From a virus, in IMG/VR virus record IMGVR_UViG_3300003885_000007, positions 1 through 47,602 of that record: DNA of 47,602 bases. One strand, 5' to 3'. Position numbers and translations under genes: made by a program. A model generated the notes under the pieces. It worked only from the letters and a program-made list of their open reading frames with translations, was not told the origin of the DNA and did no database searches. Shown here one piece after another: positions 10,471-36,849 of this stretch; positions within the stretch are counted from its first letter, which is position 1, and each line of letters begins with the position of its first letter.

Positions 10471-10477
10471 AAATAAA

Positions 10478-10507
10478 TTGAACTTTCATTGTTTTCAGAT
10501 GTCTAAT
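10478..10507 (+). promoter_or_regulatory. Operon promoter A (TTGAAC-N18-TCTAAT)
   Basis: TTGAAC at 10478-10483 and TCTAAT at 10502-10507. Both boxes, their 18-base spacing and the flanks recur on the minus strand at 45850-45821, so this is a duplicated promoter. It should start transcription near 10514 and drive the replication operon. Confidence 0.7.
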
Positions 10508-10517
10508 GATTAAAACA

Positions 10518-10553
10518 ATTAGTTTCTAACTAATCGTGAATCCCTAGATTCAC
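10518..10553 (+). promoter_or_regulatory. Twin-hairpin 5' leader A
   Basis: Hairpin 1 is ATTAGTT-TCT-AACTAAT (10518-10534). Hairpin 2 is GTGAATC-CCTA-GATTCAC (10536-10553). They begin only a few bases after the predicted transcription start. The same pair is found downstream of promoter B, with compensatory changes in stem 2. A role in antitermination, 5' protection or processing is possible. Confidence 0.65.
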
Positions 10554-13989: not shown

Positions 13990-14498
13990 TATATATAACC
14001 TCAGATTGGCATCTAGGACATAAAAATATCACAAGATTTCGCACAGAGTTTGGAACTATTGGGGAGCATGAGGGTCTAATTATAGAGAATTATCATTCTA
14101 CTGTGAAGAGTCGTGATAAAGTATTCTTTTTAGGGGATATGTGTTTTAATAAGGAGTCTCTAGAGATTATAAGAACTCTTCCCGGAAGTAAGCACCTAGT
14201 ATTAGGCAACCATGACACTGATGCAGCTTGTAGGCCGGGTATAGCAGAGCTTAGTTTAGTGTATGATAAAATACACGGAATACACTCCTATAAACATGCG
14301 TGGCTAACTCATGCTCCTATACATCCTCAGGAGCTCAGAGATAAGTGGAATATACATGGACATGTGCACTCTATTGAGAATAGTATTAAAGACCCTAACT
14401 ACTTTAATGCGTGCCTAGAGAACACAGAATATAAACCAATAGCATACCAAGAAATTCTTAGAATAATGAGGTCCCGAAATGAACAACAGACTACATAA
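13980..14498 (+). CDS. Calcineurin-like metallophosphoesterase
   Basis: 172 aa with the full metal motif set: SDWHLGHKN (Asp and His), FLGDM, LVLGNHD, LTHAPIHP and HGHVHS. It should hydrolyse a phosphate ester or diester. Next to ligase and kinase genes it is a candidate for end healing of RNA, but nucleotide or DNA substrates are possible. AAGGAG precedes the start. Confidence 0.87.
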   Translation: MSVVYITSDWHLGHKNITRFRTEFGTIGEHEGLIIENYHSTVKSRDKVFFLGDMCFNKESLEIIRTLPGSKHLVLGNHDTDAACRPGIAELSLVYDKIHGIHSYKHAWLTHAPIHPQELRDKWNIHGHVHSIENSIKDPNYFNACLENTEYKPIAYQEILRIMRSRNEQQTT

Positions 14499-15295: not shown

Positions 15296-16436
15296 GGCAT
15301 TTAATATTATACGTACTCTAACTAAATCGGGAGAATTTTCAGACGTCTCTGAGGAGGTATTCAAATATATAACGAAGTTCTATGATACAGATTTAGAAGC
15401 AGAACAAATATCTATTGACCTGTTTAAGCAAATACTTATACAGGAGATACCCCGGCACTCAGATATAATAATAAAAGAAATAGAGACGTATACAGAGACA
15501 TCTGTTCCTAACTTATTAGAAGAACTCACAAAGCTCCGTAAAAAAGCAATCTCAGAAGAGATTATAACAGAGTTAGCCCTCCGACCAAACAGTGAGTCAG
15601 TCTTGGAGCTCATGTCTAATTACCAAGACGTAACTATACAGGAGATAGCTGACCCTGTATCCGTGTCAGATATAGCCAGAGATGTTCTCTTAGATCTATC
15701 TAATACAGATAACTTAATTAAGATATATCCTAATGTTCTTAATGATGTAATAGATGGAGGTGTTATTGGAGGCACACATATACTAGTATTTGCTAGAAGT
15801 AACTTAGGCAAGACTATGTTTAATATTAACTTAGCTAGAGGAATGGCACGGGACGGTCATACTGTTCTCCACCTAATCAATGAGGAGCCAAAGAAGCAAC
15901 TACTATTAAGGTACATTAACAGGTGCTCAGGACTAACTAAGAGCGAAGTATATTCGGATATTGATAGAGCAGTTTCTATAGCAAATGAAAATGGACTAAA
16001 GAATATTTTTATTGAGGACATTAATCCCGGAACTTTTACCGAGATTAGAGGTCTAATAGATAGCATTAAACCAGATGTAGTTATCTTGGATCAGCTAAGA
16101 AACCTAACAGTTAAGGAGGATTCTAGAGTAAATGGACTTGAGAAGCTGGCCACAGAGGCAAGGAACCTAGCCAAGAGATATGATATAGTAGTTGTATCTG
16201 TTACACAGGCAGGAGACTCTGCAAGTAATAAGCTAGTATTAACAGACTCTGATATAGACTCAAGTAAGACAGGCATCCCGGGACAGTGTGACCTTATTAT
16301 AGGTCTTGGGGCAGACAACAATCAAAAGGAGGCAGGAATGAGAACATTAACTGTAGTTAAGAATAAGATAACAAGTACACATGGCTACTACCCTATACGA
16401 GTAGTAGAGGACTTAAGTAAGATTGTGAGTATGTGA
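15228..16436 (+). CDS. Replicative DnaB-like helicase
   Basis: About 402 aa. The N-terminal helical part is followed by the RecA-like core. Walker A is FARSNLGKT near residue 188, where Ala replaces the usual first Gly. HLINEEPKKQLLLR follows, then Walker B PDVVILDQLRNL and a polar motif 3 (VVVSVTQAGDSASN). It should unwind DNA at the fork with the separate primase. The frame is open from GTG 15219; ATG 15228 is better placed after AGAGG. The stop overlaps the next ATG (ATGTGATG). Confidence 0.88.
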   Translation: MSLLRRYLAIEKQILQAALQSRKAFNIIRTLTKSGEFSDVSEEVFKYITKFYDTDLEAEQISIDLFKQILIQEIPRHSDIIIKEIETYTETSVPNLLEELTKLRKKAISEEIITELALRPNSESVLELMSNYQDVTIQEIADPVSVSDIARDVLLDLSNTDNLIKIYPNVLNDVIDGGVIGGTHILVFARSNLGKTMFNINLARGMARDGHTVLHLINEEPKKQLLLRYINRCSGLTKSEVYSDIDRAVSIANENGLKNIFIEDINPGTFTEIRGLIDSIKPDVVILDQLRNLTVKEDSRVNGLEKLATEARNLAKRYDIVVVSVTQAGDSASNKLVLTDSDIDSSKTGIPGQCDLIIGLGADNNQKEAGMRTLTVVKNKITSTHGYYPIRVVEDLSKIVSM

Positions 16437-16600
16437 TGTATACTAAACAGAAATACCATGTGGACATTACAGAAGCGTGTGCTAGGGCCTTTAATATGCA
16501 CAACGGTATCCCATGCCATATAGAGGGCAGGAGATATTTACAGATGATTAAAAGAATGCTAGACTCTATGGGAGTGCGGTATGGGCACGATGGACGCTAG
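16436..16600 (+). CDS. Small hypothetical protein, 54 aa
   Basis: Starts on the last base of the helicase stop and overlaps the polymerase start by 20 bases. Basic helical sequence (CHIEGRRYLQMIKRMLDS). Unrecognised; the tight coupling suggests a replication accessory role. Confidence 0.6.
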   Translation: MYTKQKYHVDITEACARAFNMHNGIPCHIEGRRYLQMIKRMLDSMGVRYGHDGR

Positions 16601-17660
16601 GCTTCTACCCCACTGGTTACGGAACTCTAGCCCAGAGATATACTTATCTGATAACTATGTCGTGCTTGATTTTGAAACTACAAATAAGAGTAAAGGATCT
16701 GTCTTAGAGGAAGACAATAGTATTGTACTTAGTGCGTATAAAGTGGGAACAGACCACAAGGAATATACAGGCGTACCCGTGGCCTGCATAGGCAACCAGT
16801 TCCATCAGGATAGACTGATGAAAGCTATAGAGTCTGCTGACTTTATAGTTGCTCAGAACACTAAGTTTGAGTTACAGTGGTTAACTCGCTGCGGACTAAA
16901 GTTAGAAACAGTCCTACCCTTTGATACGATGCTAGCTAAGTATGTACAAAATGGGAACAGACGCACCCCTTTAGATCTAGATTCTATTGCCGCCACATAT
17001 AGTCTAGGTAAAAAGATGTCCTCTGTCAGTAAGCTTATTAAATTTGGAGTGTGCCCTAGCCAGATACCAGTACCTATGTTACGCAGATACTGTGTACAAG
17101 ATGTATTACTGACTGAGCAGATCTTCCTTAAGCAGAGGCAGGAGCTATTACAAGATGGCTTACTAGCAGTGGCGTTTACTAGGAATATATTTACTCCCGT
17201 ATTAGCTGATATTGAAATGACAGGAATGCAACTAGACTCTGAACAAGTGCTAGATTATTTCGAGGAGTACTCTAGGGTACATGCGAACGTACTAGAACAA
17301 CTGAATACTTTTTCAGAGGAGGTTAACTGGAACAGCCCCAATCAAGTAGCAGAGTTTGTATATGAAGGCCTAAAGTTTAAAGAGTTAGAGATACGTGGAA
17401 GTCCTATAAGAAATAAGCCTAATAAGCGCTTTCCTAACGGCGCTCCTAAGACAGATACAGCAACCTTATCTGCACTAGTAGCAACTAATAAGCGACAAAG
17501 AATCTTTACTGACTTATATGCGAGAAACTCAAAGCTTAAGAAAAGCTTGACAACGTACCTAGCTCTCTTTAAGACGAGTGTATTAGAAAAAGGAGGAATG
17601 TTATACGGTAAATTTAACCAAGCTATTACACAGACACATAGACTGAGCAGCTCTCAGCCT
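16581..17660 (+). CDS. DNA polymerase, family A, exon 1
   Basis: Residues 1-360 of the spliced polymerase. The N-terminal 3'-5' exonuclease has VVLDFETT (motif I), VAQNTKFELQWL (motif II) and YCVQDVLLTE (motif III). The polymerase domain begins with KFNQAITQTHRLSSSQP, the conserved template-contact segment. Without splicing the frame runs into the intron and stops at 17708. The exon ends after CCT at 17660: CAGCCU at the exon end can pair with GGGCUG in the intron to form P1 with the U-G pair at the splice site. GGGAG precedes the start. Confidence 0.85.
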
Positions 17661-18354
17661 GAGATTATTGGGCTGAATAAACAGTGTGAATTCAGGGGAC
17701 ATCTCTAGTAGACAATCCTGAGCGAAGCTAATACCATTACTGCCACAGGAGGCACAACATGGATAAGATAAAAGACTTATATGAGAACACAGAGTACACT
17801 ATTCAAGAGATAGCTGATATGCTGGGTGTTGCTTTCTGGAAAGTTGGTGGATATCTCCACAAGAACTATCCTATAGAGCATAGACTGGCAAGAAAGAGCA
17901 TCTGTTATAGGAATTCTAAACTAGGCAATAAAAATCCTAGTCATGGAAAGAATGGCAAAGATAGTAAAAAGTTTATTGGAGACATATCTGACGGCAAGGG
18001 CTATATACTTAACCTAAAACCAGACTGGTATACAGGAAGAAAGGGATGTAAGCATGTCTTTAAGCACTCTATAGTTATGTGTGAGTCAATGTTTATGTCA
18101 GAGATTCCTCAAGGTTTTTGTATCCATCATATAGATGGGAATAAAACTAACAATAATATAAACAATCTTGCCTTAATGACCTTAGGGGCTCATTCAAGAC
18201 TTCATCAATTAGAACGTGCAACGACTAGTCGAAAGACGTAGGGGAAAGGACAGTACCCGAAGCGCATTGCAGTAGTTGAGGAGACTAGCTACTGATGATA
18301 TAGTCTGATCTGTATGGCGACATACAGAGTACATGGACAGACGTAACATAAATG
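17661..18354 (+). other. Group I intron in the DNA polymerase gene
   Basis: 694 bases. The 5' site follows exon CAGCCT, with an internal guide GGGCTG ten bases on. The core CATCTCTAGTAGACAATCC near 17701 is very close to the corresponding core of the T4 td intron. GATATAGTC near 18296 fits the 3' half of P7. The intron ends in G at 18354. Removing it joins ...SSSQP to NFQNFDRNF in frame, restoring a normal family A polymerase segment. An HNH endonuclease gene lies inside. Confidence 0.88.
17759..18241 (+). CDS. HNH homing endonuclease, intron-encoded
   Basis: 160 aa with CAGGAGG upstream. The N-terminal part (YTIQEIADMLGVAFWKVGGY) looks like a helix-turn-helix for DNA binding. A segment with NKNPSHGKNG is typical of NUMOD-like repeats. 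The catalytic HNH part is KHSIVMCE, then CIHHIDGNKTNNNINNL, then LGAHSRLHQ. It should cut intronless polymerase alleles and so spread the intron. The frame ends before the 3' intron core. Confidence 0.88.
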   Translation: MDKIKDLYENTEYTIQEIADMLGVAFWKVGGYLHKNYPIEHRLARKSICYRNSKLGNKNPSHGKNGKDSKKFIGDISDGKGYILNLKPDWYTGRKGCKHVFKHSIVMCESMFMSEIPQGFCIHHIDGNKTNNNINNLALMTLGAHSRLHQLERATTSRKT

Positions 18355-19101
18355 AATTTCCAGAATTTTGACCGTAACTTTAAACAGCTATTTACTAGCA
18401 GGAGAAGAAGAGATGGATGGCGAATTGGAGAACGAGATGCAGCTCAACTTGAATTCAGAATTGCAGCCCATGTTGGAGGAGATGAGCAGGCTATTAAGGA
18501 CATTAACGAAGGATACGACATACATGCATACACGGCTTCAGTTATTGGCTGTGAACGAACACCAGCCAAGGCGCATACTTTTAAACCTTTGTTCGGCGGC
18601 ACTAGCGGCACAGCAAACGAGCAACGATATTATAAAGCTTTTAGGAAAAAATACCACCAGATTACATCCACACAGGATGGATGGGTTAACGAAGCTTTGT
18701 TGTCAAAACAGCAAGTGTTACCAACCGGGCTGATATTTTACTGGCCTAAGATTAAACTAACACGCACAGGGTATGTAGAAGGAAATACTAATGTTAGAAA
18801 TTACCCAATACAGAGCCTAGCTACAGCAGAAATAATTCCTGTAGGAGTTACGTATGTATGGCATTATATGAAGGCCCTTAGTTTAGAGTCTATGATTATT
18901 AACACGGTACATGACAGCATCATTACTGACGAGAACCCAGAGGAGACAGAGACATTAAACGAGATAACTGACTATGTGTTTGCCCAAGAAATCCCAGATT
19001 ATTTAAACACAGTATATAACATTACTCTGAAGATACCCTTAAAGGTAGAAGCAGAACTATCCGACAACTGGGGATACTATCCCCCTAAGATAATTAACTG
19101 A
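18355..19101 (+). CDS. DNA polymerase, family A, exon 2
   Basis: Residues 361-608 of the spliced product. Motif A is ERDAAQLEFRIAAH with the catalytic Asp. Motif B is RTPAKAHTFKPLFGG with Arg and Lys of the O helix. Motif C is INTVHDSIITDE. The unspliced frame could start at ATG 18352, whose G is the last intron base; this is not a true start. The total length of about 608 aa is shorter than the 704 aa of T7 polymerase. It is the phage replicase. Confidence 0.88.
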   Translation, partial: NFQNFDRNFKQLFTSRRRRDGWRIGERDAAQLEFRIAAHVGGDEQAIKDINEGYDIHAYTASVIGCERTPAKAHTFKPLFGGTSGTANEQRYYKAFRKKYHQITSTQDGWVNEALLSKQQVLPTGLIFYWPKIKLTRTGYVEGNTNVRNYPIQSLATAEIIPVGVTYVWHYMKALSLESMIINTVHDSIITDENPEETETLNEITDYVFAQEIPDYLNTVYNITLKIPLKVEAELSDNWGYYPPKIIN

Positions 19102-23272: not shown

Positions 23273-23445
23273 TTCTTTCTCCTAAATAATCTTTGTATTG
23301 TATCAGTCTCATATATACGGATGCATGTCCAGACAATAGTTAAGACTGCAGCAACCGCCGGTAAGCCTTCCATTAATGTAGCAACTAGTATTCCCACCGA
23401 TGTTCCGTCCCCTAAACCTTTTAATACTTCATAGTCATCACTCAT
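23269..23445 (-). CDS. Putative small holin, 58 aa
   Basis: One hydrophobic segment (GLPAVAAVLTIVWTCIRIY) lies between an acidic start (MSDDYEVLKGLGDG) and a basic tail (QRLFRRKK). The size and charge pattern match small class II or III phage holins. The start overlaps the stop of the large virion protein (ATGA) and the stop overlaps the next GTG. Confidence 0.65.
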   Translation of the reverse strand: MSDDYEVLKGLGDGTSVGILVATLMEGLPAVAAVLTIVWTCIRIYETDTIQRLFRRKK

Positions 23446-26400
23446 CGTGAGTACCTCTTTCTTGATGCATTCCTTCTAGCACCGCCTCTAGTTGTTTTCT
23501 TTCTTCTTACCTCTGTCTTTAGTTCCTCCATCAGTACCTTCTTGCCCGGAAAGACTTGGGTAGATACAGCTGCTCTAACTACAGGTTTAACAGATCCTTG
23601 TGAGACGCTGTTAATAGCCCCATGAGCAAGCTTGCCTACATCTCCTGCGAAAGGCCCGGCTAGATTCGCTAAGCTAGAGGTAGCTGAGTAAGCACTACTA
23701 GCCATCACATCTAGTGCTATTCCTAAACCCCCTACTGAGGTAAATCCCCGTAACACTCTCTTTAGCATAGTTAACTCAGAATCATCCCCTTTAACTAGTC
23801 TCCTGAACTCATCTACTGTCATCCCTACAGGAGTACCTACTAAAAGATAATTAAAGGCAGGCAGTAAGTTACCATTATAAGCAGGCTTTACTACATTCTC
23901 TTTAATAAAAGCTCCGTGCTGGAATGCAAATGATTTAAACTTAGTAAAGATTTTAGCATGAGGAGACTGCCACATAAGAGGGAGCCTATCTGCTGTATTC
24001 TTAAAGTTAATCTCATTACTGAATCTAAGGGCAGCTCGTAAAAGATCCCCTTCTGGAACTAGGTCTGATGCTAGATTACTAGTCAGTCCTATCTCTTCCA
24101 TCTGAGCCAGGATCTTGTCTGCTTTCTTTCCTATAATTTCACCAGAGTCTATTAGTGCTTTCTTTCCTAGTAAGTTCTCAGCATAAGCCTTGCCCATATT
24201 AGCAGCAAACTTTCTCTGGAACTGCTCTACTCTTAAGAAACCTGTAGCACGTAAGAACTGTGTAGGATTATTAAGGTACTCAAGAGCTGCAAACTTCCCA
24301 GTAACTTGTCTTCCTAAAATAGAGCTCCCTTCTGAGTACTCACCTAATGTCTGGAGTACAGTAGCTTCCATAGCTGCTCCCGACTCATCAGCAACAGCCT
24401 GCCCCTCCTCCTTAAAGGATTTAATTAACGATTTATAGGCAATCTTATACGTATCTATTGGATTAACTCTTCCTGATAAATAAGTAGTTCCATTAATCAA
24501 GGCCTGCCCAACATTAATAGACTGAGCTAACGTGAGTTTCAGGGTCTCAACTGCATTAACGGTTCCATAGAATCTACGTAGACCGTCCTCCATTAATAAT
24601 GAACTCATAATAGCATCTGCCTTAGAGTCCCCTACTGCATTATAGTACACCTGTCTCATGTAGTTAGCCTCTTTAGCTGTGAATTCTTCGCCTACTTTGT
24701 CTGCTAACTTCATTGCTAAAGAATCATCCGCCCCAAAAGCTTCTGCCATCTTAATGCGTCTAAACACATCATGGTAGTAACTGGTCAAAACAGCATGAGG
24801 ATTGTCTATAACAAAAGGATCTAGTATACTCTCATTCTTTACGTGTATCTTTTTATTATGCTCTAAGTGTGAGCTTCTCTTAGACTTACGATATACTCCA
24901 CGGCGCTCCCATAGCTTGGCAGCTTGTTCTCTAGATAGATAAAAACCTTTTTCACCTTTCTTAGATAGGTTAATAATCTTCTCAATAGTCTTTTCATTAT
25001 TGCCCATCACAGCAACTAAAGTCTTACGTAGGGAGTCTTCGTCCCATTCTTGCTTAGTAAATACTTCTAGCCACTTCTCTTTCCCTTCCTTAGATGATAA
25101 GAATGCCTCGTTATATACTCGCGGCCAATAACCTTTTTGCTTAGCCCGTTGTACTAACTTAAGTCCCTGCTTCTTATCAATAACTCCCGCTTTAATACTC
25201 TGGTTAATAGCTGAAACAAAGTCACGTTTAGTTACTTGTACTGCTCTCTTAATATTTTCTGGAAGGTTTCTCATAGGAACTTCATTACGCATTCCCTGAA
25301 TAAACACATCCTGCTCCTGCTTAGTCATCTTGTTAAGAAGTTTATCTGAGTCAGTAAGTAACTTAGCTGAGGCTAACTCCGCATTATCTATTGCAGCAGT
25401 AAGTCTTGCACTAAATACCTTACCAGTATTTCCTAGATGCTGGAACTTCATACGAGGCTGTGTAGCTATAGAAGCTGCATTTTTAATTATAGTATCTTCT
25501 GCCCATGTGCTCATTTTTCCTAAAGCTGTGTAGGACTTTCCTAGTGCCCAAGGCAGTCCCAGACCAATAGCAGCCCCTACCATAGCCCCTTCTTTCCCTT
25601 CCCACACGTAACCAAGTCCAGCCCCTCCAAGAGTGCTGCCCATATTCTGTAGTAACTTCTGGTCAATTCCCCCAGATTGTTTTAACATTCCCTTGAATTC
25701 GCCTAAGGTTTGCTGTTTCTTAGCCACTTCTCTTTTAAGCTGTCGTGTAATATCTGAATCTTCTAGGGGCGTGACAGCTCCTTTGCGTAGACGAGCCTCT
25801 GCATCAAATTTATTAACAAGGATCTGTGTTTCTACTCTTCCTTGCCGTGCTCGCTGCTCAAACATAGCGTCTATTTCTGCTTGTTTCTGCTTTACCTGTT
25901 CTATAGCCTTGAATTCAGCACGTAGTTCTGCATTAACTGAACTAGGTTTAGCCTTAACTGCTTGCTGTTGTGCGATGTCACGTAAGTCATCCTGTGTTCT
26001 AGCATACTTGTCAAAGAAAGATGTCATCTCTGGATCATCTTTAAGTGCATCCTGCATAGCAGCCTTACGTACATTCCTAGAATTTACCTCTTTACGATTA
26101 ATTCCTAGAGAGTCATTAATAGCATCTGCTAACTTAGAAGGGTCTCCTTCTGCTACTTTGTACTCAATCTGCTTCTCAATAATCTCTGCCTTAGATATAG
26201 GGATACCCTCAGCTTTTCTACCAGCTAACCACTTAGTAAAGGCACGTCCGCCTGCTTGTATAAGCCCTGCAGCAACTCCTCCTATAGCTGCTGCTATAGC
26301 AACGTCCTCTAGATCGACACTACCTTTAGTAGCTAACTGGTATGCCGTAGTATCGGCTGCCCCTAATGCTGCGCCTGTACCCATCACTGCTTTAACTCCT

Positions 26401-27080
26401 CCAGAGAAGGGTATCAACACAGTAGTAGGATCAGCTAAGGCAGAACCAAGCGCTCCTATTAATACAGCGCCGTCCTGAGCGTACTTAGTGTTGTGTATTT
26501 CAGGGAACTCTTTTGTTAGCTTCTCGTCACGTATTCGGTTTTGTAAACTAAGTGCCCCATCAATTACATCAGCTTCCTCCCATGTAGGAGGTCTCTGTTC
26601 TTTGTCTATAGCAGTAACCATAGCTTTAGAGTCATCAATAGCTTTGACTAGTTTAGGGTCAGGAGGAACATATCGCCATGACCATGCAGTGCCCTCTTTA
26701 ATCTCCATACGACCTAACGGTAACTGCCTTTCCATGAAATTAGCAGCGTTAGTAGTAAGGCCATCCATAGAGGCAAACCCGTACTGTATCTTTTCATACA
26801 AGCTCGGCTCTACAGTAGAATCACCTATAGCTCCTGCTTCTTCCCATGTAGGAGGACGATCCTCTTGCTCCCACGCAGGTCTCATATCCTTTTCTTTAGA
26901 CGCACTGATCTTAGGTACTTTTTTAACAGGGACAGGGGGGATGTATTCAACAGGTTCCTCGCCGTCAGGTGTCTGGTACTGTAAATCAGAAAGAGCTGCC
27001 GCAGCAGCCCTCTGTTCTGACACTGAGCTACCAAAACTGGCAGTCTTAGCTAGATCTTTTTCATAAGAACTTAAAGGCAT
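23442..27080 (-). CDS. Large internal virion (DNA ejection) protein, 1212 aa
   Basis: The largest gene of the window. The N-terminal part contains two similar segments (AWEQEDRPPTWEEAGAI near residue 70 and EQRPPTWEEADVIDG near 160). Ala/Gly-rich hydrophobic stretches follow (AVLIGALGSALADP and AIAAAIGGVAAGLI), which could insert into membranes. Long helical regions and a second small Gly-rich patch come later, then a basic tail (RRKKTTRGGARRNASRKRY). Size, composition and position resemble internal core or ejection proteins of T7-like phages. No transglycosylase motif is seen. Confidence 0.75.
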   Translation of the reverse strand: MPLSSYEKDLAKTASFGSSVSEQRAAAAALSDLQYQTPDGEEPVEYIPPVPVKKVPKISASKEKDMRPAWEQEDRPPTWEEAGAIGDSTVEPSLYEKIQYGFASMDGLTTNAANFMERQLPLGRMEIKEGTAWSWRYVPPDPKLVKAIDDSKAMVTAIDKEQRPPTWEEADVIDGALSLQNRIRDEKLTKEFPEIHNTKYAQDGAVLIGALGSALADPTTVLIPFSGGVKAVMGTGAALGAADTTAYQLATKGSVDLEDVAIAAAIGGVAAGLIQAGGRAFTKWLAGRKAEGIPISKAEIIEKQIEYKVAEGDPSKLADAINDSLGINRKEVNSRNVRKAAMQDALKDDPEMTSFFDKYARTQDDLRDIAQQQAVKAKPSSVNAELRAEFKAIEQVKQKQAEIDAMFEQRARQGRVETQILVNKFDAEARLRKGAVTPLEDSDITRQLKREVAKKQQTLGEFKGMLKQSGGIDQKLLQNMGSTLGGAGLGYVWEGKEGAMVGAAIGLGLPWALGKSYTALGKMSTWAEDTIIKNAASIATQPRMKFQHLGNTGKVFSARLTAAIDNAELASAKLLTDSDKLLNKMTKQEQDVFIQGMRNEVPMRNLPENIKRAVQVTKRDFVSAINQSIKAGVIDKKQGLKLVQRAKQKGYWPRVYNEAFLSSKEGKEKWLEVFTKQEWDEDSLRKTLVAVMGNNEKTIEKIINLSKKGEKGFYLSREQAAKLWERRGVYRKSKRSSHLEHNKKIHVKNESILDPFVIDNPHAVLTSYYHDVFRRIKMAEAFGADDSLAMKLADKVGEEFTAKEANYMRQVYYNAVGDSKADAIMSSLLMEDGLRRFYGTVNAVETLKLTLAQSINVGQALINGTTYLSGRVNPIDTYKIAYKSLIKSFKEEGQAVADESGAAMEATVLQTLGEYSEGSSILGRQVTGKFAALEYLNNPTQFLRATGFLRVEQFQRKFAANMGKAYAENLLGKKALIDSGEIIGKKADKILAQMEEIGLTSNLASDLVPEGDLLRAALRFSNEINFKNTADRLPLMWQSPHAKIFTKFKSFAFQHGAFIKENVVKPAYNGNLLPAFNYLLVGTPVGMTVDEFRRLVKGDDSELTMLKRVLRGFTSVGGLGIALDVMASSAYSATSSLANLAGPFAGDVGKLAHGAINSVSQGSVKPVVRAAVSTQVFPGKKVLMEELKTEVRRKKTTRGGARRNASRKRYSR

Positions 27081-27081
27081 A

Positions 27082-28098
27082 TCACTTTACTCGGTACATT
27101 GGCTTAGGAGGAGTCTCTCGTGTATCATACATCCAGCCTCCCCTCTCTTTAAGGTAGTTACTTACTAGTTTTTGAGTCCCCCACGTAGGATCCTCTAACT
27201 TGTACTCCCTAGAGATCATTTGTTCAGCTTTATTACGGCCATACTTAGCCTCAAGCTCTATCAGACGCTCTTCCACTTCAGCGTACCCTTCCGGGGCTAT
27301 AGGTACTTCAGTGTTTCCATCTTTATCTGTACTAAAGTTCCAAACAGAATTAGCAACACTGAAGGCTCTATCTTCTTTAGCCGTAACAGTCTTGATCCTA
27401 GTTAGGTCTTCTTTATTCTGAATCTTAGTACTCTTTGATTGTAATTTATTAAGCTTCTCTTGAGCGCCGGGAATACCATTAGTTACTGCCGCCTGTGCTC
27501 TAGAAATATCTCTTGATAAAGTAGCTGATGGATCTTCATTACGAGATTTATCATTACTCACCTCATCCTGTGCATCTATGAGTTTAGTCTTATTTCTCTC
27601 AGAAGGATTCTTAGCGTACTCAGCTATAGCTAGATCAAGCTCATGCCTATGCTTAAACTCTTTAGAAGATCCTTTCATATCAATAGGATTGCCTCTGTCT
27701 ATAGCATTTAACATCTTATATCCGTAAGCAGTGGCTGAGTTGTTCTTTGCAAGTTCCTGTGCCTTAGTCCATTTGCCCCACTCTTCTCTAGATTCAGTCT
27801 TAGGCAAAGACATTTTATATGCTCTTTCTCTAGCAGCCTCTTGTCCCAGCTTCTGCCTCATCTCATAATCTTGTTGCTGGCTAGCTCTCTTCTGTTTTTG
27901 GCGAGCAGCCTCGTCCTGCTCTCCTTGGCGAGCTCTCTTATCCTCATACCGGGACTGCTCTTCTTGCCTATCTTTTTGTTTATTATAAAAATCTAATCCT
28001 TGAGTAATAGCATTACCTATGCCCCAAGTATTAGCTTGCTGTATCTGTTGTAGTGTCTGTCCTGCTATAGGACTTACAAAGCCTCTGCCGCCTGCCAT
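27082..28098 (-). CDS. Internal virion-type helical protein, 338 aa
   Basis: Highly charged Gln/Arg/Lys/Glu-rich helical protein, with a long run of charged residues at 45-100 (DKRARQGEQDEAARQKQKRA). No recognised domain. Its place between two large virion proteins suggests an internal or ejection protein. Confidence 0.65.
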   Translation of the reverse strand: MAGGRGFVSPIAGQTLQQIQQANTWGIGNAITQGLDFYNKQKDRQEEQSRYEDKRARQGEQDEAARQKQKRASQQQDYEMRQKLGQEAARERAYKMSLPKTESREEWGKWTKAQELAKNNSATAYGYKMLNAIDRGNPIDMKGSSKEFKHRHELDLAIAEYAKNPSERNKTKLIDAQDEVSNDKSRNEDPSATLSRDISRAQAAVTNGIPGAQEKLNKLQSKSTKIQNKEDLTRIKTVTAKEDRAFSVANSVWNFSTDKDGNTEVPIAPEGYAEVEERLIELEAKYGRNKAEQMISREYKLEDPTWGTQKLVSNYLKERGGWMYDTRETPPKPMYRVK

Positions 28099-28099
28099 A

Positions 28100-28699
28100 T
28101 TATACCCCTACTAATGTTCCATTAATATATATTGTGTGATCTACTAGTGCAGATAAATCATCATTTAAGATAACCCCAAATAATTCAGAGGAATCTCCAT
28201 GTATAGCTAGTGGTATTGGCCAGTCAAACTCAACCATCGCGAAGTCATCGCCTGCCCCAAAATCTATCCTCATAAAATGTCCTCCATACTGAGTCCAAAT
28301 GCCGTGAGATTTTATAGTCTGTAGGGCTGTAAAGTCTTCTAATATTGTAGTACTTAGGTCTGTTCCTTGAGAGAGTACTATACGTATACCATTAGTTAGT
28401 GCTCCCCCGCCACCATACCCGGCCGCAGTAAACTTAGAATTATCATGGATATGTACGATCATTTTAGAAATTACAATAATCTCATTAGCTGCAGGCTTAA
28501 TGAAGAACTCTCCTGCATTTATTGAGTAATCCCCTACCATGCTCTGTGCTCCTGCTTTACTCCCAGTATCTGTTAGGAATTGATACACAGAAGTAGTAGC
28601 AGGATTTATAGTAGTAATAATCTGAGTGCCATCAGTAGAAACTAGGCACTCCTTAGGAAGATTAGTTACAGTCTTTCCTTGTATAAGTACGTTACTCAT
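28100..28699 (-). CDS. Virion structural protein, 199 aa
   Basis: Starts at ATG 28699 (MSNVLIQGKTVTN); the frame is open further upstream but overlaps the previous gene. Beta-rich with a Gly loop (YGGGGALTNGIRIVLSQG). It looks like a tail-associated jelly-roll type protein; the family is not recognised. Confidence 0.65.
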   Translation of the reverse strand: MSNVLIQGKTVTNLPKECLVSTDGTQIITTINPATTSVYQFLTDTGSKAGAQSMVGDYSINAGEFFIKPAANEIIVISKMIVHIHDNSKFTAAGYGGGGALTNGIRIVLSQGTDLSTTILEDFTALQTIKSHGIWTQYGGHFMRIDFGAGDDFAMVEFDWPIPLAIHGDSSELFGVILNDDLSALVDHTIYINGTLVGV

Positions 28700-28709
28700 A
28701 ATTTTATTC

Positions 28710-30680
28710 CTATACCGTAGCTGCGCCTGCTGCAAATAGGGCCGGATTAGCTGTTAATCCGCCAGCTATCATGCCACCAGCACCTAGTAATTGGTTTAAT
28801 GTACTAGTCCTTCCTGCACGTTTTGCATCTGCACGAGCTGCTCGATTAGTGAGTATCTGTGATTGGTTTGCCCCTAACGTATCTAGAGAGTTACCCAAGG
28901 AGTCTGTATAACTCTGGTTAGTGCCAGTTAAAGAGCCTAGGCGATTGTTATATATCTGTCCATAATCGGCCACAGTTGGCGTTAGGTTCTGTACATTACC
29001 TGTAGTATCTTGTAAGTTATCCATAGGATTAGTTACTTGCGCGCCGTACCTTCCTGAGAAATTAGCACCCCTACCAGAGAGTTCAGACAGCATACTTAGT
29101 CTCTGTGTACGTAAATTAGACGCACGATTATAAGCATTGCCATATTCCTGTGACCCAAGACCACTCATGTACCTAGCTAATTCTTTTTGTCCGCCACCAG
29201 TATTTAACGACCCTGAGGCACTTTGCTGGCGTAATGCAGCCTTTTCAGCTTCTCTCATCCTAAACTTATAGCCGGGATCATTAGCTAAGTCTACATTAAT
29301 GTCTGATCCTGCCAGTGACTCGTACTCGCCTGTAGCAGCATCTCCTTGAGAGATGTATGGACTGTAAATATCATTTATCTTAGTGTCATATTCTCCGGCA
29401 CGAGTATCTAGACCAGACTGATATGTTCCTGTCCTAGTATCTATTTGGTCTTGGTAATCACTAAGGTAGTCCCTAGCTTCTGTAGAACGTCTCTCGGTAT
29501 CATCTCGCCATTGTTCAGTAGTTTTAAGAATGTCACTACGCTGCTGTACCCTTCCCAGATCTGCAAGATTAATTTGGTTAGTAAATGTATCTGCAGCTAC
29601 CTCTTCTTGACTTCCTGTACGTATTTCAGTAGGGACATAGCTGCCATAATCAGGCAGGTCTCCTAGACCTGCAGCGGGCGTATCTTTAAACCTACTATTA
29701 TCTGGGCTATTAGGCCCTCTATTTGCATCAGGCATATCTGTGTCTCCTGTAGTACCTGTGTCTCCTGTAGTACCTGTGGTACCTGTAGTGCCTAAATCAG
29801 GTAATGTATTAGTAGGATCAAATCTTCCTTGCCCAACGTCTATTCCGGGGCGGGTATTTGTCCCTGTTGTACCTGTATCATTGTTTCTGTACGCAGGATT
29901 AGGATTATATGCATTTCCCCCTCCCGGCAAATCAGTAGGCCCAACAGCTCCTCCGTATTGATTTGTTATCATCCCTCTAGTAACAGGGATTAGTCCTGCC
30001 TGAGTCGCTGTGTCTCCTCCCGGACGACCACTGCCCGCACTATAGGCATCATTTACAGCATCTGTTGCTCTGTCAGTCATGTATGTAGGGTATGCACCAG
30101 AAGTTCCGTAGCTTCTATCGGATAAAGTAGCGTTAGGGCCTAAGTTACCTGCCTGAGCTGCATCATATGCAAGGCGCATATCTCGTGGCGAATTAATCCC
30201 AGCATACTTGCCGCGTATTTCTCCATACCCGGCAGGCCCGTCCACACCAAAACGCTGCAGGTACCAATTACTCATATCTGCATTTACAGTGTTATCACCT
30301 ACTTCAGGAGCAGTATTGTTTTGTTCATAAATCCCCTGTATGTACGCCTCTCCTCTAGCGTAGCTGGTAAGATCCCTAAAGGCTGCATTATCCCTTTTGC
30401 CTGCGTTACTAGCATCTAACTCCCTCTGTGCAAGCAGTGTTTCCTCCTCATTCATACCAGAAAACTGACCCTGTGCGACTTGTTCTTGTCCTTGTGTATA
30501 TCCTGAATCTATATTAGAGGGATCTTCTGGATTATAAAATTGACTAGTCTCTGGCAAGGTACCATTAGCAGAGAAATAGTCAAAGTCTTTTTGCCACTCA
30601 GCACTGTCCTCATAATTTGCCTGAGGAAGGTTTGTTAGTGCATAAAATAGTCTATCTTCTTGTGCTAGTTGGTTACTCAT
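28710..30680 (-). CDS. Virion protein with Gly/Thr-rich linker, 656 aa
   Basis: The N-terminal half is Asn/Gly/Tyr-rich and contains a low-complexity linker of Gly-Thr and Asp units near residue 305. The C-terminal half is helical (EKAALRQQSASGSLNTGGGQ) and ends in an Ala/Gly-rich hydrophobic segment (LLGAGGMIAGGLTANPALFA). Features fit an internal or ejection protein of a short-tailed phage. No enzymatic motif found. Confidence 0.65.
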   Translation of the reverse strand: MSNQLAQEDRLFYALTNLPQANYEDSAEWQKDFDYFSANGTLPETSQFYNPEDPSNIDSGYTQGQEQVAQGQFSGMNEEETLLAQRELDASNAGKRDNAAFRDLTSYARGEAYIQGIYEQNNTAPEVGDNTVNADMSNWYLQRFGVDGPAGYGEIRGKYAGINSPRDMRLAYDAAQAGNLGPNATLSDRSYGTSGAYPTYMTDRATDAVNDAYSAGSGRPGGDTATQAGLIPVTRGMITNQYGGAVGPTDLPGGGNAYNPNPAYRNNDTGTTGTNTRPGIDVGQGRFDPTNTLPDLGTTGTTGTTGDTGTTGDTDMPDANRGPNSPDNSRFKDTPAAGLGDLPDYGSYVPTEIRTGSQEEVAADTFTNQINLADLGRVQQRSDILKTTEQWRDDTERRSTEARDYLSDYQDQIDTRTGTYQSGLDTRAGEYDTKINDIYSPYISQGDAATGEYESLAGSDINVDLANDPGYKFRMREAEKAALRQQSASGSLNTGGGQKELARYMSGLGSQEYGNAYNRASNLRTQRLSMLSELSGRGANFSGRYGAQVTNPMDNLQDTTGNVQNLTPTVADYGQIYNNRLGSLTGTNQSYTDSLGNSLDTLGANQSQILTNRAARADAKRAGRTSTLNQLLGAGGMIAGGLTANPALFAAGAATV

Positions 30681-30683
30681 AAA

Positions 30684-31103
30684 TTAGTCCAGTGGATATA
30701 TTATATTTATATCGTAATATGTTCCTGTTGTATTTGCATTGTAGATAGTTACTGCCCCTGTAGGCATGATAACCAGTCTTCCTCCAGCGCCTCCAGCTAC
30801 ATCAGAGACTATTGCATATGAGTACTCTTTTATAGGAGAGTACTTTTTAGGTAGGGTAAATATAACAGTGCCGTCTGTTTCTGTTCCCGGAGTCAGCCTA
30901 CCATGTACGTGTACTGTGTTTGTTATAGGAAAGTATCTATACCCAAAATGCTTACTAGTGGCAGTTGTCCAGCTATTTTGAAATACAGGATTAGTACCAG
31001 TTCCCACATCTTTCCATACGTGGTAGTTCACATGATCAACTAATTGGTCTATAAATTTATCTCTTTGGTCAGGTAAATCAAAGTCTACTTTAGATGAGAT
31101 CAC
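30684..31103 (-). CDS. Virion structural protein, 139 aa
   Basis: Beta-rich protein. NTVHVHGRLTPGTETDGTV and FTLPKKYSP resemble small tail or fibre-tip domains. The start overlaps the stop of the hub protein by 4 bases. Confidence 0.6.
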   Translation of the reverse strand: MISSKVDFDLPDQRDKFIDQLVDHVNYHVWKDVGTGTNPVFQNSWTTATSKHFGYRYFPITNTVHVHGRLTPGTETDGTVIFTLPKKYSPIKEYSYAIVSDVAGGAGGRLVIMPTGAVTIYNANTTGTYYDINIIYPLD

Positions 31104-33181
31104 GATAACATCTTCTTAAGCCCTGCATAAATAGTAAAGACCGAGGTGGCAGTAAGCTCTGTTATTGAGAATATGTAGATACGGTCTCTAGCACTTCCTA
31201 ACATGTTCCATACTACTCTGTCGCCCTTTATTAGTGTCTCTCTGGTAACCGTGCTTCCTCCATTATCTGTGTAGCTAAGAGTTACTGCAGGAGTTACTGT
31301 ACTAAGAGGTAGTCCCGTTACTCCAGAGCGCACAGTAAATTTATCTCCGGCGACTAATGTTCCTAAAGAGGCTAATGTAAAAGTATTTCCAGACACTGCT
31401 GTAATAGTTCCTGTAGCAGTCCCGTCTGTTTCATTTATTAAGTAGTCCGAATTAAGGGCGATCCCAACAGCACCCCAATCAACAAACTCATTAGGTATTA
31501 CTACGTTAATTAAGATGCCAGCTACAATTAAAGATGCGTCCTGTGTTGAGTACATCTCTACGTAATTGTGTGCCATCTTGACATGATCCTCTGGATCAAG
31601 TATATGACCTGACCGCAACTCGCGGGTTAAGAGGCCATTAGAGAAATAATCTGTTCCTTGCTGAGCATCTAGGAATCTATGTGCAGTAGTTCTACTATAT
31701 AGGTATCCTCCATATATGTGCCCTATAGGATAATCATACCATATACCGTTAAGTTGATATGCCCAACGTGACCACAGTTCTGTGCTGTAGTTATATACAT
31801 ACGTAAATTCTCTATTCGTAAATAAGCAATAAAACAAGTAACCTCCGTACTGCAGTACAGAGGCGTAGTCACCAGTAACTGGCTCAGTTATGGGGGCAGG
31901 CCTATCAGACACAGACAATCCAGAAGACTTAACAACAAAGCCCAGAGAACTTACCCACATCAGCTCATTGCCTACTAGGGAAACAGTGTAAGGCTTAGTT
32001 GTTCCGTTCTGTATTACACTAGTTTTTATAGGAGTAAATGGAAAGTCTATATTCCCAGAGTTATACCATATCTCTGTAGTTGTGCTGCCTATTAACCATA
32101 GCTCATTCTTCTTTGCTATAACGCACTGTAAAGAATCTCCTGAGTATGCAGCCGTACCATAGTCTAAGGAGTTCCACACATTAGTGTTATTAAGCTCTGA
32201 TATATAGAACCTGCCTGTACCAACCTTATCTCTAATGTAATACCCATCTAGGTATGTACACGTCTGCGAGTCGAAGACCTCTCCATAGGAGTTAGCAAAG
32301 GTGTAATTATCCCCTACGGGAACTAAATCAAGAGCAAGGGTCAGTACATCCTCGTACTTTCTTGCTATTATCCCAACGTAAATGTCTTCTGTAGAGTTAT
32401 ATATAGACATGCCTATCTTAGCGAGTTTGCCTGCCTGATTAAAGCGAAATGCAGAAGAAGTATCTATTAAGTCATTAGTCTGTCGCGTATATAAGTTAGA
32501 CACAGATAATGCGCAGGGAACAGTTTGCCCTGCTCCGGGTATAGTCAGGTTAATTGTGTCTGTTATTACATAACCAGTGCCTATAGCAAGGATTTTATTA
32601 ATAGAGGTTACTGCTCCTCCTGAGATAACTACAGAAACTTTCATCCCTGAGCCTGCTCCAGAAGTAGATGCTTGCGTAGCTACATAAGTACCGTCATTAG
32701 TAAATGTTCCTGTAAACATAACTGAGTAAGTTATTGCTCCAGAGGTCCCACTTAAGGACGTGCCAGAGAAATTAACTACACCGTCTAGTGGCCACATGCC
32801 CTGCGCATTCCCCACATAGGCAGTACTTCCCCCAGTAATGAGTATTTGTGTAGGCGTATCAGAGCCATTAGTAACTAAACTAGCTCTTGAAGTAGTTATA
32901 GTTACATCATCTGTCTCTGCCCCGTAGGTTGCGGTTCCCTTATGTAGCGTTGTTTTAGGAGTGGCTGCTGCATCATAGTGTAGTGTCCAAGCACCTATCC
33001 CTCCTATACAGCCACCTGACGCATCATCAATAGTTATATTTGCTGTCGCGTGAGGAAAGGGCATTAAGGAGACCTCTCCCTGAGTACCACTAGACTGGTC
33101 AACATAAAAATTAACTAGTCGTGCTTGTGCATTCTCAGAGTCCGCTCTTGCAGATATATTGTTAACTAAATTAAGTCTCAT
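31100..33181 (-). CDS. P22 gp10-like tail hub / DNA stabilisation protein
   Basis: 693 aa. Near residue 350, KKNELWLIGSTTTEIWYNSG and FPFTPIKTSVIQNG match the pattern of P22 gp10-type stabilisation proteins, and a following beta-propeller-like region (LSVSDRPAPITEPV) fits. An inserted segment near residues 125-230 is Gly/Thr-rich. The protein should close the portal channel and connect to the tail needle or spikes. It overlaps its neighbour by 4 bases, consistent with co-translation. Confidence 0.75.
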   Translation of the reverse strand: MRLNLVNNISARADSENAQARLVNFYVDQSSGTQGEVSLMPFPHATANITIDDASGGCIGGIGAWTLHYDAAATPKTTLHKGTATYGAETDDVTITTSRASLVTNGSDTPTQILITGGSTAYVGNAQGMWPLDGVVNFSGTSLSGTSGAITYSVMFTGTFTNDGTYVATQASTSGAGSGMKVSVVISGGAVTSINKILAIGTGYVITDTINLTIPGAGQTVPCALSVSNLYTRQTNDLIDTSSAFRFNQAGKLAKIGMSIYNSTEDIYVGIIARKYEDVLTLALDLVPVGDNYTFANSYGEVFDSQTCTYLDGYYIRDKVGTGRFYISELNNTNVWNSLDYGTAAYSGDSLQCVIAKKNELWLIGSTTTEIWYNSGNIDFPFTPIKTSVIQNGTTKPYTVSLVGNELMWVSSLGFVVKSSGLSVSDRPAPITEPVTGDYASVLQYGGYLFYCLFTNREFTYVYNYSTELWSRWAYQLNGIWYDYPIGHIYGGYLYSRTTAHRFLDAQQGTDYFSNGLLTRELRSGHILDPEDHVKMAHNYVEMYSTQDASLIVAGILINVVIPNEFVDWGAVGIALNSDYLINETDGTATGTITAVSGNTFTLASLGTLVAGDKFTVRSGVTGLPLSTVTPAVTLSYTDNGGSTVTRETLIKGDRVVWNMLGSARDRIYIFSITELTATSVFTIYAGLKKMLS

Positions 33182-34119
33182 TGCCCTGCCGGTGGCGGTA
33201 AGTCCGCCTGTAGATAAACTGAGCCTTCTTCTACGTCATAGTCTTTTGCAAGGGTAAGTGCAGTAAATGCGTCACCTTTAAGTATACGTAGCTCATCTAT
33301 AGGTAGCCCATATCTAGGCCCTAACCTCTCGGCCAGACCTAAAGTAATTGCCTCATACCATTCTTGAGGAAAATCAAAAGAATCATTACTAGCATTCATG
33401 TCGTCTATGGGTGCTTGGTAATCTATGTGTAGCTTATACTCAGTTACTGCAGTAGCGTCGGCTGTTGGCCATACGTAAAATATACCTGCCCCTAATGTCC
33501 TTTCATAATGAAATTGTATAGGGATTCCTGCGCTTGTCTTAGTAGGTAACTGCTCATATTCATTACGAGTTAGCTCAGTCATAGGCACAGAGTTACCAGA
33601 AGTATCTACTCGGGTAACCTCAGACAATCTCTCAGGACGGATAATAGATCCTGCTGAAGCAAGTACTGCTGTTCCTGCATCAGTAGCACCTACAGCACCT
33701 CCAGCAGTATAAGTAAAGGTATTCTCATCTGTAACAGTAATTGTAAAAGTACCATTATAGTCTACGTCTGTTGCTCCTGCAATAGTAATAGACTCTCCTG
33801 TACTTAGGTTATGCTGCACAATAGTTGCAGTGGCTGTTGTTCCTGCACCAGCAAGAGTTACTCTAGTGGCTAAAGGAGTTCCTAATAAGTACTGCGACTG
33901 ATTAAGTACTAATGGATTAATGATATGCCTCTTACGTTTCCATATATGTAGGCCGAAGGCTGTCCATGCCTTTAGCATCATATTAAGAGTACGTGACGCT
34001 ACAGTAATCTCATTAGCCTGCATAGCCTGACCTTCGACGGCAACGTGAATAAGCTCATAGGCACTACGGATCAACGTATCCCTGTCTATTGTGTAATTAG
34101 TGCTGTTACTTAGTGGCAT
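33178..34119 (-). CDS. P22 gp4-like head-tail adaptor with beta insertion
   Basis: 313 aa. The helical N-terminus (TLIRSAYELIHVAVEGQ, then ASRTLNMMLKAWTAFGLHIW) and the C-terminal ITLGLAERLGPRYGLP match head-completion proteins of P22 gp4 type. An Ig-like or beta insertion lies near residues 88-152 (STGESITIAGATDVDYNGTF), an unusual addition. It should bind under the portal. Confidence 0.75.
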   Translation of the reverse strand: MPLSNSTNYTIDRDTLIRSAYELIHVAVEGQAMQANEITVASRTLNMMLKAWTAFGLHIWKRKRHIINPLVLNQSQYLLGTPLATRVTLAGAGTTATATIVQHNLSTGESITIAGATDVDYNGTFTITVTDENTFTYTAGGAVGATDAGTAVLASAGSIIRPERLSEVTRVDTSGNSVPMTELTRNEYEQLPTKTSAGIPIQFHYERTLGAGIFYVWPTADATAVTEYKLHIDYQAPIDDMNASNDSFDFPQEWYEAITLGLAERLGPRYGLPIDELRILKGDAFTALTLAKDYDVEEGSVYLQADLPPPAGQ

Positions 34120-34127
34120 CGCTCTTC

Positions 34128-34616
34128 CTATAAAGTACTATAATTTATTAATTTCCAGACTGTTCCTGTGAATTCCACAATCGCTACAAACGGTATTTCT
34201 GTAGGAGGGGTTTTAAGACTGTCGCTAGCCAGAGTAAATGCGCCTATCCCTGTTCTATATATCTTGAACATGTCGCCTCTCTGTGCATCTATAGTACTAA
34301 GCGTTATAGTTCTATTAGCTGTGAGGACTGTGTCCCAGTTTTGAGTGCTAGTATCTATGCCCATCTGTAGAGTCTTGTCTATGTCTCCTACTAGGACTAC
34401 GCCAGCTGCTTTATTATCTGCTTGTCTTGTCCAAGGAACACTGGTATCATCCGGCTCTATCCTAAAGAAGTCACTTACATGCCTAGGTTCCCAGCAGTCT
34501 TTACAGACATATAGATTATCCCATGTCTCTCGTAATTCACTAGCCTTGAACTTGAAGTCACAGCGATCACACTGCGCATTCCAATCACCTAGCTTTAAGT
34601 AATCAGCGCGTCCCAT
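34128..34616 (-). CDS. Virion protein with N-terminal zinc ribbon
   Basis: 162 aa. CDRCDFKFKASELRETWDN followed by CKDCWEPRHVSDFF forms a CxxC...CxxC zinc site, as in many marine-type podovirus virion proteins. The C-terminal half is beta-rich (ANRTITLSTIDAQRGD). Probably a minor tail or head component. Confidence 0.7.
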   Translation of the reverse strand: MGRADYLKLGDWNAQCDRCDFKFKASELRETWDNLYVCKDCWEPRHVSDFFRIEPDDTSVPWTRQADNKAAGVVLVGDIDKTLQMGIDTSTQNWDTVLTANRTITLSTIDAQRGDMFKIYRTGIGAFTLASDSLKTPPTEIPFVAIVEFTGTVWKLINYSTL

Positions 34617-34618
34617 TC

Positions 34619-34906
34619 TTATCCTGTATAAACTATTGCTGTTGCGCCGACACCTACTACACTAACGTACATACCTTTTGATGCTCTAATATTCTGTGGA
34701 AAATAGAAGTGCTCTGTTAGGTTTGCCGCAGGTACAGATGCTTGGAATAACAGGTCTCCAGAAGCAGCCGTATTATTATAAATAGATACTGTTGCAACAT
34801 TAGTGCCATCTGTGTTAATTGTTACTGCAGTAAGTAGTCCTGATCCTGTAGATAGTGCTTTACTTCCAGCAACATTAATACTTCCGCTCGATTGTGATGT
34901 GTTCAT
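34619..34906 (-). CDS. Small virion beta protein, 95 aa
   Basis: Ser/Thr/Ala-rich beta sandwich-like sequence (LLTAVTINTDGTNVATVSIY). The start overlaps the previous stop by one base. Probably a small decoration or tail protein. Confidence 0.6.
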   Translation of the reverse strand: MNTSQSSGSINVAGSKALSTGSGLLTAVTINTDGTNVATVSIYNNTAASGDLLFQASVPAANLTEHFYFPQNIRASKGMYVSVVGVGATAIVYTG

Positions 34907-36342
34907 TAGGTTGCTCCTATTGCAACTGTTCCGACAGTTAGTCCTACCCTGCCGTCTGCTGTAGCCTGATCTATAGTCACTGTTCCTGCTACATTCCGTA
35001 TAGCATTAGTCGCTCCCTTAAGTCGAGACTGGCGTATATTTACAGTAGCTCCGGCGTTGTTAGAGTATACTGCTGAGTTTGTAGTGCCTGATACTTCTAA
35101 GTTACAGTGAGTTATATTCACCGTGGCTGCTGCCTCTACAATAACTCCTACTGTGTCCTTATTTCCGTTATTATCTATATCACACCTTACATTATCTAAA
35201 TTAACAATACTTGCCGACGATACCCGGATACCTCCAATACCTGAAGTAGCTATACTCGCAGAAGCATCTATATCTATTCCAGTAAATATTAATTCAAGAT
35301 TACTGTAGGTGTAGGTAGCTATCTGATCGCAGATAATATTATACGGAGTTAGTATCTGGTTAGCTCCTGAAAGCTCAAACCCCTTACGCACCTCTATAAC
35401 GGTGTCTAGCATACGTATCTTAGTGTTAGTGACTGATTGTGTCACGTCCATCCCAGAAACATTTGTGGAACTATAGCCGCTATAGTTGTCGTTAATAATC
35501 CTACAATTCTTATGTGTAACTGTACCATTAGGAACAAAGCCTATACGGGCATCTCCTCCGGCGTGAGCTCCTGACAAGTCACGTATGTCTAAGACGCAGC
35601 CCTCAATGTATCCTTGCTGATCGCCCCAATGATACGAGTTGTCCCACGCACTGCTGCTGGTCTTTCCGTCATTAACTGAGTAATTGTTAGTAATACACCC
35701 ATCTAGCACACCCCACCTATTAGTAGGGGAGAGCTGTAGGTTGTATAGTCTATTTTCACCAAAATTAGTTATAGGCACTGCAGGAACTGCAGAAGACTCA
35801 TTAATACTAATTGCTGAAGAATCCATGCCCACAAGAGATATTCCCGGAAGTAGATTAATGCTTCTAAAAGCACTAGTACCTACAGGAACATAGGCACCTC
35901 CTATAGGGTACTGGTTTGGCATTATTAAGACAGTCGCCCAATCAATGTAGTAATAATTTACATCTATAGTGCTCGTGGAGGCTCCTCCTATATATGGCTC
36001 ATAAAGTATCTGTACTGTATCAGATACTAATTCTTTTATTTTATAGTAGCGCGTATCTGTTCCAAAACGTATAAGGTCATCTACACGGTATATCTGCGAG
36101 TTATCTCCCGGAAACCCCACTCTACCTGAGCGCCATCCTATGGCATTATCTGATAACGCAGTAGATGTGACAGTTGCTGAGCCATTGACCAGAGTTACTG
36201 CTCTCCTCTCTGTGTGCCTTCTTGTGCGCCTGTCTCCAAGTAGATTAATTGCTGCTTGTATGTCTTCTGCTACATTAGTGACACGTATCTTTTCGCCTAT
36301 AGCTCCGAGATATACGCCATTATTAAAGTGCGTTAATGGCAT
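34906..36342 (-). CDS. Tail spike-like beta-helix protein, 478 aa
   Basis: Short beta strands repeated at about 20-25 residues, with SIVNLDNVRCDIDNNG, then TVNITHCNLEV, then TVNIRQSRLKG, are typical of right-handed parallel beta helices. The N-terminal 90 residues may attach to the virion. No catalytic residues can be named. It may bind or cut surface sugars of the host. Confidence 0.7.
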   Translation of the reverse strand: MPLTHFNNGVYLGAIGEKIRVTNVAEDIQAAINLLGDRRTRRHTERRAVTLVNGSATVTSTALSDNAIGWRSGRVGFPGDNSQIYRVDDLIRFGTDTRYYKIKELVSDTVQILYEPYIGGASTSTIDVNYYYIDWATVLIMPNQYPIGGAYVPVGTSAFRSINLLPGISLVGMDSSAISINESSAVPAVPITNFGENRLYNLQLSPTNRWGVLDGCITNNYSVNDGKTSSSAWDNSYHWGDQQGYIEGCVLDIRDLSGAHAGGDARIGFVPNGTVTHKNCRIINDNYSGYSSTNVSGMDVTQSVTNTKIRMLDTVIEVRKGFELSGANQILTPYNIICDQIATYTYSNLELIFTGIDIDASASIATSGIGGIRVSSASIVNLDNVRCDIDNNGNKDTVGVIVEAAATVNITHCNLEVSGTTNSAVYSNNAGATVNIRQSRLKGATNAIRNVAGTVTIDQATADGRVGLTVGTVAIGAT

Positions 36343-36352
36343 TAGACCTTCC

Positions 36353-36805: not shown

Positions 36806-36825
36806 ATTATTTTCCTTAGTAAGAA

Positions 36826-36843: not shown

Positions 36844-36849
36844 ATCTAG

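Follow-up and report, generated by a model that had tools for sequence, protein, structure and literature searches.

The window analysed here is the whole of a 47.6-kb virus record (IMG/VR IMGVR_UViG_3300003885_000007, positions 1-47,602), in which early and replication genes are encoded on the plus strand and structural genes on the minus strand. Searches with PHROG and Pfam identified genes for a primase, a DnaB-like helicase, a DNA polymerase, amidoligase-type proteins, a terminase, a portal protein and a capsid protein. Two ORFs that flank an HNH endonuclease gene together encode the DNA polymerase (16581-19101, plus strand). Two similar promoters lie at the heads of the major operons, promoter A 5' of the primase gene and promoter B 5' of the late operon, and each is followed by a leader with two hairpins (Table 1). 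Within the late operon, the gene at 43601-44593 looks like a small terminase gene and encodes a helix-turn-helix-like stretch, and a gene for tRNA-Pro(TGG) is located 3' of promoter B (44817-44893, minus strand). Neither an RNA polymerase nor a sigma factor was found among the scanned ORFs of the window by PHROG and Pfam, in agreement with the first-pass annotation, which had described a phage without its own polymerase.

Table 1. Promoter and leader features of the window (positions from the first base of the window; hairpin distances are relative to the predicted +1)
Feature	Position	Strand	Sequence	Basis or location
Promoter A, head of the replication operon	10471-10507	+	AAATAAA-TTGAACTTT...TGTCTAAT	
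Promoter A, ECF-type core	GAACTT at 10480-10485	+	GAACTT, 15 nt, GTCTAA	pattern scan
Leader A, hairpin 1	10518-10534	+	ATTAGTT/AACTAAT	folding; from about +6
Leader A, hairpin 2	10536-10553	+	GTGAATC-CCTA-GATTCAC	folding, exact string match
Promoter B, head of the late/structural operon	45821-45857	-	core GAACTT from 45848	
Leader B, hairpin 1	45759-45813	-	outer stem AGATTAGT/ACTAATCT, about 35 extra inner bases	from about +3
Leader B, hairpin 2	45742-45759	-	TGGAATC-CCTA-GATTCCA	folding, exact string match
Candidate third ECF-type core	16030-16056	+	GGAACTTTT...GTCTAA	within the DnaB gene, 5' of the DNA polymerase genes
Candidate fourth core	14053-14079	+	GGAACTA...GTCTAA	within a phosphoesterase gene

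The string TTGAAC-N18-TCTAAT had exactly two perfect matches in the window, at 10478-10507 (plus strand) and 45850-45821 (minus strand), and was matched elsewhere with one or two mismatches at the rate expected by chance. The hairpin 2 string GAATCCCTAGATTC also had exactly two perfect matches, at 10538-10551 (plus strand) and 45757-45744 (minus strand). Across the promoter stretch, copies A and B agreed in 34 of 45 bases, compared with at most 30 in 200 randomised windows. The leader is duplicated along with the promoter, and the earlier description of one promoter and leader at the heads of both operons holds, as each exact string occurs only twice. That description, however, missed that the promoter belongs to an unusual, sigmaE-like class. 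The two intragenic cores at 14053 and 16030 may be chance matches.

The phage sites consist of an A-tract, a -35 element GAACTTT, 15 bp and a -10 element GTCTAA, for which the variant GTCAAA also occurs. Published reports describe similar elements for sigmaE of Salmonella (GGAACTTTT at -35 and GTCAAA at -10; PMC1804206), for the rpoE and rpoH promoters of Shewanella (GAACTT with GTCTAC and GTCTAT; PMC4336711) and for AlgU (consensus GAACTT-N16/17-TCtgA; PMC10651043). Promoters A and B fit these descriptions in their -35 GAACTT, in their -10 with GTC/TC and in their spacing. We scored known promoters with matrices of the phage motif (the first leaving out records G015 and G035; the later one from 23 sites, leaving out G015, G025, G028, G035 and Slicky01). 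With just the -35 and -10 elements of the phage matrix, the rybB, rpoE and micA promoters of E. coli each ranked first in their own region, at the spacing of the phage sites and with scores of 18.4, 16.2 and 12.4, respectively, where the 95% level of random 300-mers was 4.5 and the largest score of 300 random 300-mers was 12.6. Further, all nine published Shewanella RpoE promoters of equal spacing (PMC4336711) scored in the top 0.16% of random scores.

The sigmaE promoters of E. coli and Salmonella and the AlgU promoters of Pseudomonas thus share with the phage sites the -35 GAACTT, the 15-nt spacing and a GTC-containing -10. In contrast to them, window-type phage sites have GAACTT preceded by TT rather than GG, a GTC[T/A]AA without variation and a conserved A-tract of greater length, and their targets are the replication and structural operons of the phages. 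Judged from these sequences, the duplicated element is very probably a promoter of the ECF-type (sigmaE/RpoE/AlgU) class. It is improbable that A and B are sigma70 promoters of the ordinary kind whose hexamers are poor. Four to five of the six bases agree with the sigma70 consensus in each of TTGAAC and TCTAAT, but the consensus -10 hexamer TATAAT has A at its second base, where C was present in 22 of 22 motif sites and also in the core sites of the 80-locus sample described below (the search pattern required this C in both sets). Scans for sigma70 promoters listed neither A nor B, both of which have C at this base, and GAACTT at a fixed spacing fits sigmaE.

When viral_contigs was searched with AAATTGAAC-N16-TGTCTAAT, 33 stretches matched, and columns outside the search pattern were conserved too, namely an A-tract before the -35 element and a T-run after. 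Gene maps showed that the sites head terminase or primase/DnaB operons. Contigs G000, G031 and G034 had sites on both the replication and the late sides (in G034, the one on the replication side is a GAACCT variant), and G007 had one site 5' of primase and two 5' of terminase on the strand of that gene. Two terminase relatives carried the promoter where copy B sits in the window. The Alcaligenes phage QDWS535, an isolate with a known host, has GGGGAACTTTTT...TTGTCTAAT, a GG form, at the head of its late operon. Several TerL relatives, among them G001, G003 and MW202796, had neither the motif nor a recognised sigma factor.

An unbiased sample of 80 loci, picked by terminase (TerL alignment) alone, contained 12 core sites (GAACTT-N15-GTCTAA). 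Eleven of these were upstream of TerL on its strand and one was downstream, whereas no core site was found on the opposite strand or in the reversed sequence of these loci. TerL-upstream core sites occurred in 9 of the 80 loci, each of which was one of the 43 loci whose upstream sequence spans 2.5 kb or more (9/43). In the collected records there were 58 core sites versus 2 in reversed sequence. This count is inflated, as presence of the motif was the reason for including many of the records, and some of them are nearly identical. The core is part of a motif found at the head of late or replication operons in many contigs from related phages.

Which sigma factor reads these promoters was approached through the sigma genes of the phages. 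No sigma homolog was detected in the window with PF04542, PF08281 and TIGR02937 in six frames or with a model of eight phage sigmas. Across the promoter-bearing family, sigma models gave only weak matches below the cut-off, except for a clear match in Pseudoalteromonas phage Slicky01. Because the window has no recognisable sigma gene, RNA polymerase with a host RpoE/AlgU-type factor is the most likely reader; given the ECF-type class, the odds are moderately in favour of such a host factor. Comparison with the Zobellviridae phages CVT22, KpnP_VR7901 and GP100 points the same way. These phages resemble the window in their opposed replication and late operons and in their amidoligase-type genes, but in them a sigma-like gene lies between the primase/helicase genes and that for DNA polymerase, and none of the three genomes has a core site. 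This complementary pattern, a sigma gene without the motif or the motif without a sigma gene, suggests that the group of the window uses a host factor. The pattern is broken by Slicky01, in which an ECF-like gene occurs together with one site, and this site heads none of its main operons. The Slicky01 gene (57956-58465; L109 27956-28465) is annotated just as hypothetical, and its product had no relatives in the phages collection or viral_contigs.

As the reader, a highly diverged ECF-like sigma factor encoded by the phage, or an appropriator, as in phiEco32, is considerably less likely. According to PMC4281155, phiEco32-like phages use their own sigma factor for middle and late promoters; the factor of phiEco32 and SU10 (gp36/gp32) is likewise of ECF type and serves both classes. 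Its motif is tAATGTATAtA, whereas the window has an RpoE-like motif and no sigma gene was found there. The ECF-like genes of Zobellviridae and Slicky01 also favour a phage factor; the three sigma-carrying Zobellviridae, on the other hand, were scanned and lacked such promoters. A very divergent sigma factor may escape the three public models and the eight-phage-sigma model that found none in the window.

The first early gene of the window (46617-47312, plus strand), which adjoins the late promoter, was considered as a sigma candidate and rejected because its product had no sigma match in the PDB. The predicted structure, a weak helical model (pLDDT 69), had no sigma fold and no match to a known fold. 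The protein had one significant viral match, the unnamed A0A2I7QQ18, and belongs to a diverged family present in several promoter-bearing relatives.

In bacterial genomes, the strict TT-type pattern was scarce. It had 20 matches in 18 of 274 gammaproteobacterial genomes versus about 39 in the reversed control, and we therefore rejected a host-wide enrichment. Among the genomes of 84,980 species there were two matches, one of them inside a gene; as this number is near chance by estimate, the Legionella match (L106) was not retained as a host promoter. Near absence of the strict motif from bacterial genomes is expected for a phage-specific factor, and the scarcity fits either such a factor or a degenerate host signal of which the phages carry an optimised version. 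As for AlgU during infection, PMC7693463 states that LUZ19 caused no significant change in AlgU expression or activity in P. aeruginosa and that a filamentous phage variant was reported to activate AlgU in this species.

We then placed the leaders relative to the predicted transcription starts. Transcription of E. coli rybB and micA starts 33 nt after the G of GAACTT, and by this geometry +1 is predicted near 10513 for A and 45815 for B, so that hairpin 1 would begin at the distances given in Table 1. The RNA folding z was -4.3 for leader A (56 nt) and -3.0 for leader B (88 nt), values reached by 0.08% and 1.3%, respectively, of 2,378 scanned 75-nt windows. A strict twin hairpin, defined as two Watson-Crick stems of at least 7 pairs each with at most 1 nt between them, occurred once in the window (10518-10553), and one was found in 100 randomised strands. 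The hairpins anticipated by the first-pass annotation are thus stronger than chance in both leaders. A relaxed definition with G-U pairs and 6-bp stems was dropped because chance alone yields many such twin hairpins (27 and 32 loci on the two strands versus 18-34 in ten randomised strands). A single unpaired base separates the two hairpins in copy A. In copy B, the final pair of hairpin 1 and the opening pair of hairpin 2 compete with one another. Hairpin 1 of copy B is indeed longer inside, by about 35 bases compared with that of A, and the two hairpins are still adjacent.

The two outer pairs of stem 2 differ on both sides between the copies (GTGAATC/GATTCAC and TGGAATC/GATTCCA). The earlier reading of this difference as covariation stands for the pairs themselves, with only two copies behind it, and a symmetric DNA site would give the same two-sided changes. 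Accordingly, GAATCCCTAGATTC could also be a DNA operator, that is, a dyad for a phage or host regulator just 3' of each promoter. The dyad is perfect, each of its two copies is directly downstream of a paired promoter, and a dimer site would likewise be compatible with the symmetric changes of the outer arms. However, the extra bases inside hairpin 1 of copy B, with the hairpins kept adjacent, favour an RNA structure over a DNA site without proving it, and no regulator was identified. We regard the operator as unlikely.

Neither a leader-containing pattern nor a hairpin pattern had a match in viral_contigs, and neither leader matched an Rfam family at the family cut-offs, with only chance-level matches at a permissive threshold. 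As no relative of the leader was found, stem 2 shows no covariation in relatives. The twin hairpins therefore seem, from these searches, peculiar to the source phage among the phages searched. Among 48 distinct intergenic sites of the family, 12 had 5'-terminal hairpins versus 7.98 expected (P = 0.085), and hence we do not claim a family-wide enrichment. The median folding z of 29 family leaders was -0.98 (G015, G025, G028 and G035 were left out of both leader counts). In G034, promoter and leader are likewise duplicated; its leader sequence is unrelated to that of the window, and its copies are alike over about 70 nt. Two other phages (L132 at 862 and L149 at 529) have promoters followed by a common leader with ACGCTTACCCTT, which had no Rfam match.

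The first-pass annotation had favoured a put-like role, in which nascent RNA binds RNA polymerase and suppresses termination in long operons. Both major transcripts would carry two adjoining stem-loops close to their 5' end, and the operons are about 12 and 22 kb long. HK022 put likewise consists of two stem-loops in a leader with two copies per genome (PMC9378689); its antitermination acts through the beta' zinc-binding domain. Put is about 70 nt long, and the two-hairpin layout measures about 36 nt for copy A and about 72 nt for copy B. However, the leaders have no specific put feature. The same source describes a bulged stem I, non-canonical pairs in stem II, a triplex and a G35-A9 pair/platform, whereas hairpin 1 of A and hairpin 2 of both copies have short stems with perfect Watson-Crick pairing, without the bulges, triplex and key bases of that description. 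Further, the leaders of the window are not conserved in relatives, match no Rfam family at the cut-offs and lie 3' of ECF-type promoters, in contrast to HK022 put, which is associated with sigma70 early promoters. An excess of terminator-like sites was confined to 23300-43000 (24 versus 11 expected) and was mostly on the non-transcribed strand, with 8 of the 24 on the late strand; the A operon and the late head showed no excess. The HK022 stretches that we fetched carried no put annotation, and an inverted-repeat search of them gave just a pair at the IS903 ends. A put-like role has no specific support and is very improbable.

Stem-loops at the 5' terminus can protect the 5' end of RNA. By analogy, the simplest role for the twin hairpins, which we propose only tentatively, would be that of 5'-end elements protecting the transcripts from decay.

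The duplication, the family-wide motif with its orientation and the match to sigmaE promoters are directly supported by the data above. From them we infer the reader, the timing and the hairpin function in the following reading, to which we assign a probability of about 0.5: A and B are middle/late promoters of the ECF-type class, duplicated with their leader and read by a host RpoE/AlgU-type factor. Early genes would probably be read from ordinary sigma70-like promoters. During infection, the host RpoE/AlgU-type holoenzyme would then most likely read A and B, A starting the replication operon and B the late operon, perhaps with help from infection-induced envelope stress or an early phage protein. 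The hairpins, which begin no more than about 6 nt from the predicted 5' end, would most simply protect the RNA from decay.

Known phage strategies are to supply an ECF-like sigma factor of their own or to redirect sigma70. With slightly less than even odds, a broad group of amidoligase-bearing phages may run its replication and structural operons off optimised RpoE/AlgU-type promoters, dispensing with an ECF sigma of the Zobellviridae type. If true, the progress of infection would be tied to activation of the host envelope-stress sigma factor, and the use of such promoters by a whole group would make the stress response an essential host factor. This would give clear predictions on host range, timing and resistance, and the motif would allow middle and late operons to be annotated in uncultured genomes. 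By title and the start of the abstract, no report of phage promoters read by a host stress sigma factor was found in the literature covered, largely papers outside subscription.

Several other features of the window were observed. Two similar sigma70-like extended -10 promoters (TGCGATAATA) at 193-227 and 47401-47435 (both plus strand) are candidates for early promoters; their match count alone is not above chance. A Gly/Tyr/Asn-rich repeat family at 339-2367 and 47493-47598 encodes short repetitive proteins. A GC-rich terminator-like hairpin after the major capsid gene (36843-36826, minus strand) is similar to that after the first early gene (47317-47334, plus strand).
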